Made by a program: the position numbers and the translations under genes. Positions 27,772 to 34,228 of a stretch of 38,032 nucleotides of DNA are shown here, one piece after another. The stretch's first letter is position 1. Every line of letters starts with the position of its first letter. The notes beneath the pieces were generated by a model. That model worked only from the letters and a program-made list of their open reading frames with translations. It did no database searches and was not told the DNA's origin. Origin of the DNA: a virus; IMG/VR virus record IMGVR_UViG_3300025138_000112, positions 1-38,032 of that record; one strand, written 5' to 3'.

Positions 27772-28001
27772 TGAAAAAGAAAAGAGAAGAAGCCCAACTT
27801 ATAGGCTACAAACTTTTGTATAATCGTTCAGGTAATTTAGTAACGGAAAGGCTGTCAACAGATATCAAAGAGCTACAGAAATATTTTAGCACTGAAGAGT
27901 TTGCTGTACTGACTACAGTTGTAAGAGAAGCTACTAAAAAATTAGACGAGGTTCATAACTATATTGAATCTAATCTAAATGCTAGGAGAATGGATAGTTA
28001 A
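27771..28001 (+). CDS. Small protein at the end of the early operon
   Basis: 76 aa, charged and helical, starting MKKKREEAQLIGYKLLYNRS. It has a TAATG junction with nrdB. No family recognised. It is the last rightward gene, and its stop codon overlaps that of the convergent cyclase gene. Confidence 0.6.
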   Translation: MKKKREEAQLIGYKLLYNRSGNLVTERLSTDIKELQKYFSTEEFAVLTTVVREATKKLDEVHNYIESNLNARRMDS

Positions 28002-29728
28002 ATTGTGTATATGATAATAGGTTCTTGCTTACCCTTGACATAGATAGGGTCTAAGAGTTTACCCTTAGTGCTTGAGCCTGTTATCGTACTCACCCCCACT
28101 ACTATATCTTGCCCGACTTCTTTAGTAGAACTTTCTAAACGAGCCGCTAAATTAACCGCATCACCAATGGCTGAATAATCAAAACGTGTATCACTTCCCA
28201 TATTACCTATCACTGCCTCTCCTGTATTTATGCCGATACCTATCTCTATTCCTAAGTTGGCTTCTGCCATATCTCGGTGTATCTCTAACGCTGTTTGAAT
28301 GGCTTTGTTCTCGTGGTCTTCAAGGTCTATGGGGGCATTAAAGATAGCCATCATCGCATCTCCAATATATTTATCTACCATCCCACCATTTTTCTTAACA
28401 GCATTTGCCTGAATTGTCAAGGCTTTATTCATAATTTCTGTGACCTCTTCAGGCTCTAATCGCTCAGACAAACTTGTAAAACCTCTGACATCTGTGAATA
28501 AGAATGTACATCTCCTTCTCTCCCCACCAAGTTTTAAAGAATCGGGATTATCTTGTAGTTGTTTTACCTGTCGAGGGTCGAGGTAATGTTCAAATTGTTT
28601 TTTGATTAACTGTCTTAATTTAAACTGCGTCCTAAAATTTAGATAGAATTGTTGGGTAGCAATAAGTGTCATACTTATCATACCCCAAGTGAAATCTATT
28701 AGTAAATTATTATTCACAAAGTAATTTTCAAGATAGCCCATTAGAGGCAACATAACCAAAAAGGATACTACCCCCTTAGTGATACCTAGATAGTTGATTA
28801 CAACGGCTGTGAGTAAGCCTGAGAGGATTAATATGAACAGTTCAGCAAGCAATCTGTACTCTGGAATTTTGGGACTGTCAAGTAGCATACTTTCTGAAAG
28901 AGCCGCTTGAATTTTGTGAGGTTCTAGTAACCCAACAGGCGTTGCAAGTTGAGGAGAAATTCCTTGAGCAGTAAAACCTACAAAAACAAATTGACTTTCA
29001 ACATCCATTTCTGCTAGTGTAGTTTGCGGTGTATCTACCCAACTAATCCACTTGCGTCCAAAGCTATCTGTATCTACTGGAGGTATCCCTTTAACCCTTA
29101 TCATCTCAATACCATTTTGATTGGTAACAATCTGGTAAGTGTTGCCGCCTCCTAGTATTTTTAAGACTTCTGTTCCAAAGGAAGCCACCCATCCTGTAGG
29201 TGTTTGTTGAAGTAGGGGTATTTGTCTTACAAGATTATCAATATCTACTGGTGCAGACACAGCACCTTGAGAGGCAGACTGTTTTAGTATATCGATGTTC
29301 GATAAGAAACCAGAAGCTTTAGGTAAGTTTACATCTGGTCCTTTGATAACTGTGCCGTGAGTAGCAGGATATAATCCGTTATCTATTTCAGGCATAGCTA
29401 TGACACTTGCAGACTTGGAAAGCTCTAAGGCAAACGCCTCGTCACCACCCATCCTATCCGCATGTGGGAATAACATAACCCACCCAACACCATAAGCTCC
29501 TGCATCCATAATCTCTTTATGTATTTCTGCAAGTCGTTGGCGTGGTAGAGGGTAACCCCCTTCTTGATTGAGGGTCTCTTCGTCTATGTTGAGTACTGTA
29601 AAATGCCCAGTAGCATGGGGTGTTTCTACGAGAGCATCAAAGGTTTTAAGCCTTAATACTTCTAAAGGTTCAGAGTTGAATAGTAAAGGTAGTGTTAGTA
29701 TACCTAGTAAAGTTAATGCCCACTTCAT
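27998..29728 (-). CDS. CHASE2-domain class III adenylate cyclase
   Basis: 576 aa. Residues 1-17 form an N-terminal membrane segment, then an extracytoplasmic CHASE2 domain to about 290 (VLNIDEETL; GYPLPRQRLAEI; FVFVGFTAQGISP), three membrane segments at about 292-365, and a cytoplasmic catalytic domain from about 395. Catalytic residues are intact: metal-binding D413 (FTDVRGF) and D457 (KYIGDA), adenine-binding K453 and D517 (FDYSAIGD), transition-state N526 and R530 (NLAAR). It should make cAMP in response to a periplasmic signal. Lacks its own Shine-Dalgarno and probably depends on the leader ORF. Last gene of the curli block. A class III cyclase is very unusual in a phage. Guanylate cyclase is less likely given K453/D517. 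Confidence 0.93.
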   Translation of the reverse strand: MKWALTLLGILTLPLLFNSEPLEVLRLKTFDALVETPHATGHFTVLNIDEETLNQEGGYPLPRQRLAEIHKEIMDAGAYGVGWVMLFPHADRMGGDEAFALELSKSASVIAMPEIDNGLYPATHGTVIKGPDVNLPKASGFLSNIDILKQSASQGAVSAPVDIDNLVRQIPLLQQTPTGWVASFGTEVLKILGGGNTYQIVTNQNGIEMIRVKGIPPVDTDSFGRKWISWVDTPQTTLAEMDVESQFVFVGFTAQGISPQLATPVGLLEPHKIQAALSESMLLDSPKIPEYRLLAELFILILSGLLTAVVINYLGITKGVVSFLVMLPLMGYLENYFVNNNLLIDFTWGMISMTLIATQQFYLNFRTQFKLRQLIKKQFEHYLDPRQVKQLQDNPDSLKLGGERRRCTFLFTDVRGFTSLSERLEPEEVTEIMNKALTIQANAVKKNGGMVDKYIGDAMMAIFNAPIDLEDHENKAIQTALEIHRDMAEANLGIEIGIGINTGEAVIGNMGSDTRFDYSAIGDAVNLAARLESSTKEVGQDIVVGVSTITGSSTKGKLLDPIYVKGKQEPIIIYTI

Positions 29729-29810: not shown

Positions 29811-30923
29811 TTAATCTCCTTGGTTTATGGTGATACTAGAATCGCCTCCTCCATTAATAACAAGCTGAGTACCCTTACCATTCTGTACTAACAGGACAGT
29901 ATAGCTACCACTTCTATCTACATCTAATCTTACTGTGTCTTCTAGAACTTTGTAAAAACTTAATACATTGTCAGTTAAGAATGTATTTATCTGTGTATTA
30001 GAATCAAAACCCATTTGAGTTCCTCTTAAATTTATGTCAGTCCGTAATAGAGATTCGGTTTGTTCAAGTTCATTAACATCTTCTATGATGTCTAATAGGT
30101 CTTCGAGAAAATTAACATCTAAGTAATTTATATCAAGCTCTGTAAACTCTAACGTATCTTCTGCAAGATAGTCTATCTCTAAATCATCAAACTCAAGGAG
30201 GTCAACATCAAGAATATTAACACTGCCACCTCCATCTTCTGTCTCATTTTGTTTTACTTCTCGTGGTGTGCTTACAATTAACATGTTATCAATTAACTCA
30301 AGCGTCAAGTCAAGGATAACAGGCTTGCTAGGCTTAGTCTCAAACATAGAAACTGTAGTAGCTTGATAAGGTTTGTTTAATATTACTTGACCCATAGCTG
30401 TAGCAACAACAATCTCGCCACTAGGCAGACCATCATCGTCAGGCAATAAGATAACTAAACTGCGTCCGAGTTCATCTACGGTTACAGTAAAGTCTGTACC
30501 CCTAATTCCAATCGTAGCACTTGGCGTTTTAATAAAGATGTTTTTTTTATCTATTGTAGCTAACTTACCAGTAATAAACCTTGCAGTTCCACTAGCAAAT
30601 TGTAAAGCCATCTTAGACTTAGAGGGGTCGGGGTCATAGATGAATTCGTCTATAATTAATTCAGAGTGTTCTGTTAAACGAACTTGACTATCATCTAAAA
30701 ATGTAATACCAATCCTTCCATTAGAAGTTTGGACATTATCATAACTATTTATATCTAAAGATAAAGAAGCTTTATAATCTTTATCTCTTACTACCCGACC
30801 CGACCCTTGTAACTCTGTGATGTTGCCTACGTTAGCAACCGACTGAACTGCCGCCATCATTCTGGATGACACAAACAGTACCACCAGAGCCAGTGCTAAG
30901 TATTTTAAGCCAGTCATTATCAT
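29811..30923 (-). CDS. Secreted FecR-domain protein
   Basis: 370 aa. An N-terminal signal peptide (TGLKYLALALVVLFVSSRMM, then AAVQS) with no lipobox; the start is at 30923 or the ATG two codons later (30917). The FecR domain spans about residues 27-165: VGNITELQGSGRVVRD, IGITFLDDSQVRLTEHSELI, TGKLATIDKKNIFIKTPSAT followed by IGIRGTDFTV. An acidic Leu/Asp/Glu-rich stretch follows (about 215-290) and then a strand-rich end (GSYTVLLVQNGKGTQLVING). FecR domains in the periplasm usually relay signals or bind surface polymers. Overlaps the curlin-like gene by 86-92 nt. It may partner the CHASE2 sensor or the fibre. Confidence 0.85.
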   Translation of the reverse strand: MIMTGLKYLALALVVLFVSSRMMAAVQSVANVGNITELQGSGRVVRDKDYKASLSLDINSYDNVQTSNGRIGITFLDDSQVRLTEHSELIIDEFIYDPDPSKSKMALQFASGTARFITGKLATIDKKNIFIKTPSATIGIRGTDFTVTVDELGRSLVILLPDDDGLPSGEIVVATAMGQVILNKPYQATTVSMFETKPSKPVILDLTLELIDNMLIVSTPREVKQNETEDGGGSVNILDVDLLEFDDLEIDYLAEDTLEFTELDINYLDVNFLEDLLDIIEDVNELEQTESLLRTDINLRGTQMGFDSNTQINTFLTDNVLSFYKVLEDTVRLDVDRSGSYTVLLVQNGKGTQLVINGGGDSSITINQGD

Positions 30924-31545
30924 TTGTACTCATTTGGTTTATGGAAAATGTTCTACTGCTTCCTGTTTGGTCTAGGTAGAAATAGCCACCTGCATAACCT
31001 TGACCGTCAAAGTTTACAGTGTTTGAATCTCCATCAATATCCATGTAATTAGTCGCACCATCATAGTCTATATCGACATTAATTGTGTTACTATCTCCAT
31101 TGATAATCCAATCTAAATCAGTGTTACTTGACATAGAAGCTGTTGCTAGGTCTAGTGTAAATGTATTACTACTTCCTGTAGCTTGCACATTAACATTAGA
31201 ACCGTCTGCTCCGTATGTGTTGTTAGGGTCTACTTGTATGGTAAAAGCATTACTGCTTCCATCAAAATTAAAGTAGCCTGTAAAGTTATCAGCCCAGATA
31301 TCTCCTAAAAAAGAGTTAGTTGAACCTATTTGATTTACATCCAGTGTCATTGTAGACCCATCTAAATCAAAGGGTGTTAGTGACCCTGCTGATGATAGTA
31401 AGCCACCAATAATGTTAGCCGAACCAAGCTGTTCTAAATCTAGATTAGCTGTAGCCCCACTTTGCTGTACGTATATCTCGTTGTCTGCGGCATATGTCAG
31501 TGTTGACAAAATGCTTAGTGCAGTTATTATTATTATTTTATTCAT
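30832..31545 (-). CDS. Curlin-like secreted repeat protein
   Basis: 237 aa. Signal peptide MNKIIIITALSILSTLTYA, then ADNEIYVQQSGATANLDLEQ, LGSANI with Q-x-G-x-x-N spacing as in curlin repeats (S-x5-Q-x-G-x-x-N-x5-Q). Repeats go on as GSTNSF, GSSNAFTIQV, GSSNTFTLDL, GDSNTINVDI, GDSNTVNF, GSSRTFSIN, i.e. a [GD]-S-x-N-x-[FI]-x-[VL] pattern, consistent with a beta-solenoid amyloid. Rich in N, S, G, D; two cysteines near the end (GTVCVIQNDGGSSVGC). It overlaps csgG by 8 nt. The natural role would be the CsgG substrate, comparable with CsgA/CsgB. The assignment is by repeat pattern and context, not by full-length similarity. Confidence 0.75.
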   Translation of the reverse strand: MNKIIIITALSILSTLTYAADNEIYVQQSGATANLDLEQLGSANIIGGLLSSAGSLTPFDLDGSTMTLDVNQIGSTNSFLGDIWADNFTGYFNFDGSSNAFTIQVDPNNTYGADGSNVNVQATGSSNTFTLDLATASMSSNTDLDWIINGDSNTINVDIDYDGATNYMDIDGDSNTVNFDGQGYAGGYFYLDQTGSSRTFSINQMSTNDNDWLKILSTGSGGTVCVIQNDGGSSVGC

Positions 31546-32335
31546 ATTCCCAATAGCCTCTCTCTATTCCTATATGTATTATATTTAAAACCCCCGACTC
31601 TATTGCCTTTTGCAAAGCTATAGAGATACTCTCATTCTCAGCCACACCACCCTCTATTTCTACTAGCTGAGTGCCAGTTTCAATAAAGCGAAATATGTCC
31701 TGCGAAATACTTGTGGATAGAATACTTTTAGATACTAATGTTTCTGTAAGCACCTCACCTGTAGACACTGAAACTAATCTTAATGATATAGTAACTGTAT
31801 CTTCTCTGTAAGATTTACTATTCCCGATGCCTAAGTATCGTGCACCGATGCCCCCAGATTTTAGATTAGCTTCATAGCTAATTACTCCACCCTGAACTAA
31901 TAGCCCTGCAAAAAGCAAAGGCTTCATCTTATTCTCTTCCTCAAATTCTTTTCGAGTTGACCTAATAAGTTGACGTTCTTTTGTAAGGTCATCTAGACCT
32001 ACTCTTTCTACTACCCTAAAAAAATTACCGTTGGACGTATGCTTAAAAGCCCTGATTAGAAATGCTTCAGGGGCTTGAGTGACGGCTGTGCTAAAGAGAG
32101 CGAACGTGCTGTTGCTTCTTCGTTGACCTGTCATATCCCTAAAACTATTAGGGTATATAGCTATGGTTGGTTTGTTTTTAGCCGCAGGTAAGTTCTTTAG
32201 TTCTTCTGATTGTAGGTCTAGTGTTGATGTCGGTTGTATTTTCTTTGTTAAAAATAAATCGTCATTAGCATTAAAGACTGCACAACTAGAAAGTAAAAGT
32301 ACCGATAGGCAAAGTGATAGTCGTAGTTTCTCCAT
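31538..32335 (-). CDS. csgG: Curli secretion channel lipoprotein CsgG
   Basis: 265 aa. Lipoprotein signal with lipobox LSSC (C18). Strong match to CsgG as I know it from E. coli: NLKSGGIGARYLGIGNSKSY (E. coli NVKSGGVGARYFGIG), VTISLRLVSVSTGEVLTETL, SKSILS, DIFRFIE, IALQKAIESGVLNIIHIGIE followed by RGYWEYE. It forms a nonameric outer-membrane pore for unfolded curli subunits. The constriction region reads GQRRSNSTFALFSTAV, where E. coli has GQFKPYPASNFSTAV. The Phe before STAV is kept, but the E. coli Tyr and Asn are not at the same places. Overlaps csgF by 50 nt. Confidence 0.95.
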   Translation of the reverse strand: MEKLRLSLCLSVLLLSSCAVFNANDDLFLTKKIQPTSTLDLQSEELKNLPAAKNKPTIAIYPNSFRDMTGQRRSNSTFALFSTAVTQAPEAFLIRAFKHTSNGNFFRVVERVGLDDLTKERQLIRSTRKEFEEENKMKPLLFAGLLVQGGVISYEANLKSGGIGARYLGIGNSKSYREDTVTISLRLVSVSTGEVLTETLVSKSILSTSISQDIFRFIETGTQLVEIEGGVAENESISIALQKAIESGVLNIIHIGIERGYWEYE

Positions 32336-32780
32336 TTGAGTCCGTGATAGTTAGGGTTATATATACACCATCACTACTATATGTAATGGTATTACCTTCT
32401 AATTCTATAGTTCCTTCTGAGCTAGGGTTCTCTCCAAATAAGTTTTCTACTAGCTGTCTTGAAAGCTGTGCATAAATTCTAGATTCTAAGTTTCTTACAA
32501 ATCTAGCAAGTGTTGTGTTTTCTTTGTCTCTTTCAATCTCATCTTGCAAAGCCTTGAGTTCTGCCTTGAGTGATAATTTTCTTGAGTGCTCTTGATTTTC
32601 AATCGTAAGGTAGTGTGAGCTTGTGTTGTTCCCATTAAAACTAGGGCTTTTAAATTTAAATATTTGCTCGTCTGCTAAACTGTGTACTGAATAAAAGACT
32701 ACAACCATACACCAAAAAAATACACAGATTGTGCAGTTTCGTATTGATTTGTAACTTCTAAACGTAGGTTTTAATTTCAT
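32286..32780 (-). CDS. csgF: Curli assembly factor CsgF
   Basis: 164 aa from ATG 32780; ATG 32795 is also possible but lies inside the preceding gene with no spaced ribosome binding site. Signal peptide region CVFFWCMVVVFYSVHSLA, mature start DEQIFKFKSPSFNGNNTSSH, matching E. coli CsgF (F-x-F-x-x-P-x-F-x-GN), the part that inserts in the CsgG pore. Then a helical neck (KAELKALQDEIERDK) and a C-terminal strand region (GNTITYSSDGVYITLTITDS followed by NGETTTITLPIGTF). CsgF couples CsgG to nucleation outside the cell. First gene of the curli block. Confidence 0.9.
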   Translation of the reverse strand: MKLKPTFRSYKSIRNCTICVFFWCMVVVFYSVHSLADEQIFKFKSPSFNGNNTSSHYLTIENQEHSRKLSLKAELKALQDEIERDKENTTLARFVRNLESRIYAQLSRQLVENLFGENPSSEGTIELEGNTITYSSDGVYITLTITDSNGETTTITLPIGTFTF

Positions 32781-32782
32781 TT

Positions 32783-32950
32783 TTATTCTATCCATCCTTT
32801 TAAAATATTAGTCATAATCAAGCAAGCACAAACAAGATTAATTAAAAGAATAATAGTTCGTATAATTGTAATTTGGTTTTCTACAGGTGCTGTATCTTCA
32901 TCGTTAAATGAACCCAATGAATATTTCCACACTTTCCATAATTTTGACAT
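32783..32950 (-). CDS. 55-aa small membrane protein
   Basis: ORF from ATG 32950 to TAA 32783, starting MSKLWKVWKYSLGSFNDEDT, then a transmembrane segment (ITIIRTIILLINLVCACLIM) and TNILKGW. The WKVWKYSLGSF start with a following acidic patch and RTIIL--N helix is a pattern I recognise in small membrane proteins of marine phages near the lysis genes. It lies 2 nt after the holin-like gene stop. It may assist lysis; function unknown. Confidence 0.7.
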   Translation of the reverse strand: MSKLWKVWKYSLGSFNDEDTAPVENQITIIRTIILLINLVCACLIMTNILKGWIE

Positions 32951-32952
32951 TA

Positions 32953-33303
32953 CTAATCTTTCCTTTGGTCTTCTCTGTCTGATTTTGCTATTTTGTCTGT
33001 GTCAATTAAATTAGGTACTCCTAATAAAGTTTTAAGAAGTACGTCTTGTCGTATAGATTGATTATCTAAAGCCCTTACCCTATCAATTAATGATACGATA
33101 ATACCATACTGGCTGTCGAGTTTTGTAGATACCCTCTCTTCCATAGTATCTAAACTTGTTTGAACCTTTTCATCTAGTGTATCTAGTTTAGTTTCCATGC
33201 CGTCAATAATTCTGTTGATAAGTTTAGACACGAACCAACCTAGACCCATTGCGGCGGCAATAGGAAATCCGACTTCTGTTATAAAGGTTACAACTTCAGA
33301 CAC
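32953..33303 (-). CDS. Holin-like membrane/coiled-coil protein
   Basis: 116 aa. N-terminal membrane helix (VVTFITEVGFPIAAAMGLGW followed by FVSKLI), then a coiled coil of heptads (METKLDTLDEKVQTSLDTME) and a charged end (DREDQRKD). Comparable proteins next to lysozymes in marine phages are listed as holins or lysis-associated. The start shares a base with the previous stop. Whether it is a second holin or an antiholin is not shown. Confidence 0.6.
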   Translation of the reverse strand: MSEVVTFITEVGFPIAAAMGLGWFVSKLINRIIDGMETKLDTLDEKVQTSLDTMEERVSTKLDSQYGIIVSLIDRVRALDNQSIRQDVLLKTLLGVPNLIDTDKIAKSDREDQRKD

Positions 33304-33776
33304 TATTTATCGGGAGTATGTGATGCACCAAAATAAAAACTAATCACAGCACTTGCTAAACCACCGAGGTAGCCGAGCACTAAGTTAATAAGAGCTTCAG
33401 AGTTTTGCTCTGGTGGTTGTAGGGTAACGAGAAATATATATCCCATGAATCCTCCAACAACTGTTACGCCTATTATTCTTGCTGTCCAATCCTTTGAAAA
33501 CTTTCCACGAGCATCCTGCTTATCTTGAGTTTCTAATTCAAATACGTCTACGTCCAGTTCCTTCATTTGGATTTCAAAAGCATTCTCTGCTTTTTTAAGC
33601 TCTAACATTTGTTCAGGCGTTGCTTCCGCTACAGCCTTTTCTATGGCTTTAGGTGTGTTAGGACACCCAAGTACATCAGCTATCATGTTAGCCGCCATAC
33701 CACCCATAGGACCGCCTAGAGCAGTACCTAATGTAGGAGCTACTGCACCTATTAAATTCTTTAACAAATTCTTCAT
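33303..33776 (-). CDS. Holin, 3TM family type
   Basis: 157 aa. N-terminus NLIGAVAPTLGTALGGPMGG followed by a soluble helix (ATPEQMLELKKAENAFEIQM), DVDVFELETQDKQDARGKFS and KDWTARIIGVTVVGGFMGYI with two hydrophobic segments and a short C-terminus (GASHTPDK). The W-x-A-R-I-I-G start of a membrane hairpin after a D-x-x-D-AR motif matches the 3TM holin family named from gene transfer agents. It should open the inner membrane to release the lysozyme. Overlaps lysozyme by 4 nt. Confidence 0.75.
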   Translation of the reverse strand: MKNLLKNLIGAVAPTLGTALGGPMGGMAANMIADVLGCPNTPKAIEKAVAEATPEQMLELKKAENAFEIQMKELDVDVFELETQDKQDARGKFSKDWTARIIGVTVVGGFMGYIFLVTLQPPEQNSEALINLVLGYLGGLASAVISFYFGASHTPDK

Positions 33777-34228
33777 TCGGATACTCCTATTACCATCATT
33801 TGTAGTTCTCTACTACGTCCACCTACTTGATTAAACCAACGACTGTCTTCCATTTCAACAGCCATCTGTTTCCAGTTACCTTCTTTACAAGCCTTTAACA
33901 TATTCTTAAACTTAGAAAGTCTTGTACCACCTAAGTTAAAACACATGTTGACTAGTACATGTTGGATAGTTGTAGGTAGTCTATTAAAAGAAGGTATGCT
34001 ACCATAAATATGAGCCGCTTCTTGATAGTGTTTATTGAAATCATCTGTAAAATATAAGTCAACAACTTCTTGTGTTACAGGCGTACCCACTTCCCAAGTA
34101 TACTCAGGGTCTTGTGGTTGACATAGATGTCCTATGCCTAAAGTTTTATAGCCTAAACTATCTTCGTATATTTTTAAGACCTCGCCTTCGTGCCTTTTAA
34201 TATCTGCTTTACAATCTTCTATATTCAT
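33773..34228 (-). CDS. Lysozyme (muramidase, GH24, T4 type)
   Basis: 151 aa, no signal peptide. The catalytic triad spacing of T4 lysozyme is preserved: E14 (KRHEGE), D23 (YEDSLG) and T29 (YKTLGIGHL), i.e. +9 and +15 as in T4 E11/D20/T26. Later VLVNMCFNLGGTRLSKFKNM and WFNQVGGRSRELQMM are the usual family helices. It cleaves peptidoglycan at lysis and needs the holin to reach the wall. Overlaps the large virion gene by 4 nt. Confidence 0.92.
   Translation of the reverse strand: MNIEDCKADIKRHEGEVLKIYEDSLGYKTLGIGHLCQPQDPEYTWEVGTPVTQEVVDLYFTDDFNKHYQEAAHIYGSIPSFNRLPTTIQHVLVNMCFNLGGTRLSKFKNMLKACKEGNWKQMAVEMEDSRWFNQVGGRSRELQMMVIGVSE

Follow-up and report, generated by a model that had tools for sequence, protein, structure and literature searches.

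An adenylate cyclase (AC) is encoded at one end of a curli-type gene cluster in a viral contig of 38,032 bp, which is the whole stretch of DNA analysed and is referred to here as the window. In our reading, held with reasonable though by no means full confidence, this AC is an inner-membrane receptor enzyme that forms the output arm of a phage-borne module for envelope sensing and fibre secretion. Enzyme and module are typical members of a system that is already known, because a viral type VIII (curli) module with AC as one of its genes has been described (Wittmers et al. 2022; PMC9599517, as far as the available text of that paper goes), and the window matches it; we are thus not dealing with a new system. 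The earlier note saw in a membrane-bound, sensor-linked cAMP producer an unusual way to reprogram the host; as stated this is not borne out, AC being a regular part of the published module and neither an isolated nor an unusual acquisition. What is new here is the recognition of AC as a CHASE2 receptor, its pairing with FecR, a small transmembrane (TM) protein in the place of the published 'histidine kinase', and a gap in the reading of cAMP in SAR11. The minus-strand series to which AC belongs is as follows:

33773..34228, minus strand: phage lysozyme (endolysin); Pfam Phage_lysozyme, 3.5e-10
33303..33776, minus strand: membrane protein phrog_1544, probable holin; PHROG match, hydrophobic segments, recurrent neighbour
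32953..33303, minus strand: small single-TM protein with coiled coil; phrog_18771, 1.8e-14, and a weak match to holin phrog_4898
32286..32795, minus strand: CsgF; Pfam CsgF, 4.7e-20
31538..32335, minus strand: CsgG outer-membrane secretion pore; Pfam CsgG, 1.5e-49, lipoprotein signal LLSSC
30832..31545, minus strand: curlin-like secreted repeat protein at the CsgA/B position, 237 aa; position and repeats
29811..30923, minus strand: FecR-domain secreted protein, 370 aa; Pfam FecR, 3.6e-11
27998..29728, minus strand: AC, a CHASE2 receptor adenylate cyclase, 576 aa; Pfam, catalytic residues, dN/dS, solved relatives

The AC reading frame is real and intact from its ATG start, and the minus strand is the correct one. 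At least 599 stretches homologous to AC are found in IMG/VR, and pairwise dN/dS (NG86) lies at about 0.05-0.17, with similar values for FecR, the CsgA-like protein, CsgG and CsgF; the AC frame is therefore not a chance one. Pfam places CHASE2 (PF05226) at residues 13-304 (E=1.1e-24; 87.9 bits against a cut-off of 26.3) and Guanylate_cyc at residues 406-570 (E=3.6e-19, far over the curated cut-off), and in the hydrophobic profile a strong membrane stretch stands out at ~291-327, just after CHASE2. Together they give an N-terminal TM segment (read by eye from the sequence), a periplasmic CHASE2 domain (~23-288), about three TM segments (289-362), a linker (363-402) and a class III cyclase domain (403-570), which is the architecture of CHASE2 receptors, with the domain held between an N-terminal TM segment and a C-terminal TM bundle. 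The sensor and membrane segments that the earlier note had claimed are thus both in place, and its broader picture of a phage-encoded, membrane-bound and sensor-linked cyclase is supported, the active site appearing competent as far as its residues can tell.

A curli-type module beside lysis genes

CsgF, CsgG, FecR and AC stand in the window in the order that characterizes viral type VIII (Wittmers et al. 2022), and CsgG is 47% identical to the CsgG of HTVC008M. According to the available text of the same paper (PMC9599517), pelagiphage type VIII modules consist of CsgF, CsgG, CsgA/B (for which the window has a curlin-like candidate), FecR, in some cases a second curlin, and AC, a set and order that agree with the window; AC is given as a viral gene of alphaproteobacterial origin that moves between phage families, and that text does not present it as a CHASE2 receptor. 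The module had also been the subject of earlier reports (PMC7029224, PMC9004378). The window differs from the phages treated there in that its terminase and polymerase are closest to those of HTVC103P-type phages. Judged in viral loci with enough flank, including those of the T4-like isolates HTVC008M and Melnitz, the gene order is kept in podovirus- and myovirus-type marine phages alike, with AC as the last gene of the module; in a separate sample, 18 HTVC008M-type loci extended 5.5 kb or more downstream of CsgG, and 17 of them had AC. HTVC008M (gp019) and Methylophilales phage Melnitz, both T4-like Kyanoviridae, carry a CHASE2-AC in the same module (33% and 32% identical to that of the window over 96-97%), but their ACs are longer (611 and 683 aa) and a second curlin-like gene lies between fecR and AC. 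Four loci (L031, L032, L033 and L037) have AC inverted with respect to fecR and csg, so that it adjoins nrdB and orf76 and faces FecR, which implies that the neighbourhood is kept without co-transcription and that co-transcription is not required.

The protein at the CsgA/B position has G-x-x-N / Q-x-G repeats and a signal peptide, both of which are conserved across loci together with its position, and its predicted model is all-beta (pLDDT 84.5); Pfam Curlin_rpt gave no match in it and the model found no fold match in the PDB at E<0.001. It is best called curlin-like, a putative identity that draws on repeats, position and the model. The start of fecR overlaps the 3' end of this gene by 92 nt (30832-30923), such that the FecR signal peptide is coded within the curlin-like gene; overlaps of at least ~85 nt recur in most podovirus-type loci and are absent in HTVC008M. 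A further small reading frame, absent from the list above (55 aa, single TM, 32783-32950, minus strand), lies between the small TM protein and csgF and is conserved just in the closest relatives (L002 and L057).

What, then, is the gene that precedes csgF? Wittmers et al. 2022 state, in the text available, that one or two histidine kinases always do so (PMC9599517). The window has no histidine kinase there; the gene before csgF encodes a 116-aa protein with one TM segment and a coiled coil, in which no Pfam kinase domain was seen and whose relatives match phrog_18771. A small TM protein of this kind lies upstream of csgF in 54 of 61 loci in one set, and upstream of csgG in all 69 HTVC008M-type loci, often in two copies. 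HATPase (PF02518) was found in none of 26 AC-carrying records, among them the complete genomes of HTVC008M and Melnitz, on which grounds a histidine kinase within the module was rejected. Based on these 26 records, the published 'histidine kinase' is probably a misannotated single-TM protein of ~100 aa.

The surroundings of the module also invite another reading, in which the whole module with its AC serves the timing or promotion of lysis, or acts on the late envelope, instead of making fibres, the small TM protein being a holin relative and the pore having been repurposed. Such a role would agree with Buchholz et al. 2022 (PMC9004378), and the constant upstream gene does have its weak holin match. 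Moreover, in many podovirus-type loci the module is flanked or adjoined by lysozyme and the phrog_1544 membrane protein, the latter being a recurrent neighbour in this lysis neighbourhood, on the upstream side of the module or following AC. However, no annotated lysis gene adjoins the module in HTVC008M or Melnitz, and conservation of a secreted repeat protein, signal peptide included, is what one would look for in a fibre system. We therefore regard a pure lysis role as rather unlikely and keep fibre secretion as the preferred function.

Several observations concern the wider distribution of these genes. Some MAGs labelled Maricaulis and Flavobacteriaceae include phage contigs that bear the module (L085, L087 and L089); in L085, FecR is followed by lysozyme without AC, and in L089 AC is split over two frames. 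The families phrog_29613, phrog_34154 and phrog_25255 match the same cyclase domain, indicating that class III cyclases occur in phages beyond the curli module. Two records named 'Acinetobacter phage MD-2021a' (CAKLQH020000011 and CAKLQF020000009) contain a cyclase domain annotated cyaA that is ~28% identical to AC, over the catalytic part only. A csgG match in a 'Salmonella phage' record (OR851715) was set aside, the record being an unverified contig of 1.5 kb.

FecR as a candidate partner of CHASE2

The phage FecR protein begins with a signal peptide, followed by the FecR domain (residues 64-149) and an acidic C-terminal half; in its AlphaFold model, residues 31-210 have a pLDDT of about 80 and the rest mostly below 50. 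The best Foldseek match is the PupR periplasmic signalling domain (6ovk, E 5.8e-5), and the periplasmic fold is indeed what it has in common with the FecR/PupR anti-sigma regulators of iron uptake. Unlike these, it has no cytoplasmic anti-sigma domain followed by one TM segment, nor any internal TM segment, but starts directly with the signal peptide. Whereas FecR figures as an iron regulator in the available text of Wittmers et al. 2022 (PMC9599517), the protein seen here thus comes without the anti-sigma part. A 'cell surface anchoring domain' (5ix9) came up as a further, weak match of the model (E 0.01). A curlin-like C-terminal tail, noted by eye from the ending GGxSxITIxQ, was dropped as a candidate, with no Pfam match at E 10 and a model of low confidence in that part.

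Do AC and FecR also keep company outside phages? Profiles built on the viral proteins were searched against 289 alphaproteobacterial genomes, yielding 169 matches for AC at E<=1e-30, 100 for FecR at E<=1e-8 and 3 for CsgF at E<=1e-5. Among the matches listed, FecR lies within 5 kb of 23 of the best 100 AC matches, as against some 0.5 expected at random (a rough expectation from the listed matches and a uniform genome size), and most of these cellular ACs have no detected FecR neighbour. The cellular AC loci that were fetched contain FecR in 12 cases and csg genes in none, and in two of them (L159 and L191) FecR is followed by AC on one strand, like in the phage. Neither AC nor FecR was found beside the csg operons of three alphaproteobacterial csg loci, nor beside csg in the cellular loci L088, L091, L093 and L094. 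Clusters of CHASE2-AC and FecR have been reported independently in Campylobacterota (PMC9239204), and the bacterial pairs, there and in the Alphaproteobacteria studied here, resemble the phage pair in that the two proteins adjoin and in the active-site signature of AC, including Ser at the position of residue 519. They differ from it in that most cellular ACs have a greater length (~720-800 aa), FecR frequently sits within very large proteins, and csg genes are not among the neighbours. In the cellular FecR loci L104-L123, the domain often occurs in open frames of ~1,000 to >6,000 aa, perhaps large surface proteins.

Because FecR adjoins the alphaproteobacterial relatives of AC and csg genes do not, two bacterial modules seem to have been joined. 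The simplest reading is that the phage module consists of an inherited bacterial FecR/CHASE2-AC pair joined to a curli secretion operon, with FecR acting in the periplasm as partner to CHASE2. The phylogeny that had been proposed in the earlier note, a quick tree rooted at the midpoint, sets the viral ACs apart from 37 alphaproteobacterial ones as a single clade (SH-aLRT 100).

The host and possible readers of cAMP

Besides the module, the contig carries genes for capsid, portal, terminase, primase-helicase and DNA polymerase, and for a class I ribonucleotide reductase (small subunit by Pfam). Identity to Pelagibacter phages HTVC115P, HTVC103P and HTVC104P is 64-65% for the terminase and 48-50% for the polymerase; the HTVC103P-type group comprises pelagiphages with HMO-2011-type structural genes (PMC8528129). 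The GC content of the contig, 37.5%, is above that of its HTVC103P-type relatives (30.8-34.0%) and may fit the more distant group IV (31.9-44.4%), the hosts of which are not known (PMC8528129), so that the contig may be a member of group IV. No nucleotide-level match to known phages was found for the window, nor any tRNA or Rfam element in it (a glutamine riboswitch has been published for Melnitz).

SAR11 is the host of several related phages, and 60 genomes were examined that make up the family of the 'Candidatus Pelagibacter' MAG G001, the SAR11 kinship of which is taken from the MAG titles of G001 and G002. None of the 60 has a class I cyclase, and the two with a class III cyclase have it on a phage-module contig binned in the MAG. 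The cNMP-binding domain PF00027 occurs in just two, and one SAR11-family genome holds a cNMP-binding protein of 246 aa. Among 37 AC-carrying viral records, many of them fragments, none contains PF00027, and a phage-encoded cNMP receptor was rejected on this count. In SAR11-type hosts, cAMP would then be a new signal without a recognised receptor of the PF00027 kind; for the phage of the window, whose host may be a different one, this gap is suggestive.

The earlier note proposed that cAMP could raise the expression of host catabolic genes or of curli-like matrix genes. Both effects could be exerted through a CRP-type receptor of the host, the common way for cAMP to act in proteobacteria; the window phage may infect a different host, its GC content exceeds that of the HTVC103P-type relatives, and one SAR11-family genome does have the 246-aa cNMP-binding protein. 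Nevertheless, the scarcity of PF00027 in the SAR11 family and its absence from the viral records speak against this route, as do the CRP-type sites in the window, which are at chance level (19 found, 22 expected). The catabolic proposal, which needs a receptor, thus fails to find support, and with adenylate cyclases missing from SAR11 and cNMP-binding proteins nearly so, catabolite reprogramming is a weak proposal if SAR11 is the host. Of the matrix proposal one half stands, in that curli-type genes do lie beside AC, but they are the phage's own, and for the hosts studied, SAR11 and OM43 strain H5P1, no curli genes are reported in the publications. On the whole, we consider action through a host CRP-type receptor unlikely.

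The cyclase reaction and what it may serve

All six residues listed in the earlier note as catalytic (D413, K453, D457, D517, N526 and R530) are present, but the role of D517 has to be reassigned: alignment to the YDIWGN/YTxIGD motif identifies S519 (in FDYSAIGD) as the purine-specifying residue and D517 as a conserved flanking one. The metal-binding Asp pair of class III nucleotidyl cyclases (D413/D457) is invariant in 80 of 80 viral homologues, as are K453 and the transition-state R530, with its companion N526 in 79. Position 519 is Ser in 47, Thr in 32 and Asp in one of these homologues, and Ser in 32 and Thr in two of 34 readable cellular relatives. Among solved sequences, those nearest to AC belong to class III cyclases of bacteria; DKYIGD of AC aligns with DEFMGD in 2w01 and DKFMGD in 6fht, the K453 position being Glu in the former and Lys in the latter. 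We take Glu at this position, as in 2w01, to mark a guanylyl cyclase, the position presumably separating GTP from ATP enzymes, and with Lys there the conversion of ATP to cAMP is the best prediction. The enzyme is very likely functional, and the intact membrane protein probably makes cAMP. Class III cyclases with other products exist, and Ser519 departs from the canonical Asp or Thr, so that cGMP or a pyrimidine cNMP might be made instead; yet the partner residue Lys453 is kept throughout the viral homologues and Ser is usual in the cellular relatives as well, which makes such a product improbable.

Within AC, the linker that joins membrane and cyclase has a mean pairwise identity of 85%; the cyclase domain follows with 72% and CHASE2 with 67%, and the TM bundle reaches 48%. 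Taken with dN/dS, these values indicate that sensor and catalyst are both being kept. That AC should be an inactive passenger, or be retained just for its CHASE2 or membrane part, as the broken frame in L089 might suggest, is hardly credible with a cyclase domain conserved like the sensor, dN/dS far below 1 and invariant catalytic residues.

How might the module work as an envelope-sensing and fibre-secreting device? Gene order and strand suggest an operon that follows the lysozyme and holin-type genes and would be expressed late in infection, its products being CsgF and CsgG, the curlin-like protein, and FecR with AC. By homology, CsgG and CsgF would export the curlin-like protein across the outer membrane. 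Secreted FecR, as the periplasmic partner of CHASE2 in the inherited bacterial pair, would report on envelope condition or on fibre export, and the CHASE2 signal would gate the class III cyclase dimer, which has its active-site set in place and would turn ATP into cAMP. A role of CHASE2 as gate is supported by an S. meliloti cyclase that produces cAMP constitutively when CHASE2 is deleted (PMC5498481). The target of cAMP would, for SAR11-type hosts at least, be something other than a recognisable CRP-type receptor.

AC is under strong purifying selection across widespread marine phages, yet SAR11 is almost devoid of both known ends of cAMP signalling. What, in such cells, would respond to cAMP? 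It is conceivable, and we offer this tentatively, that phages install FecR/CHASE2 sensing together with cAMP synthesis in hosts lacking both a cAMP synthase and any CRP-type receptor, and that an unrecognised receptor of phage or host ties the signal to fibre secretion or lysis. In any case, the FecR protein described as an iron regulator would become a partner of the CHASE2 cyclase, and the supposed kinase a small membrane protein, and this alters which experiments make sense for phage curli modules.
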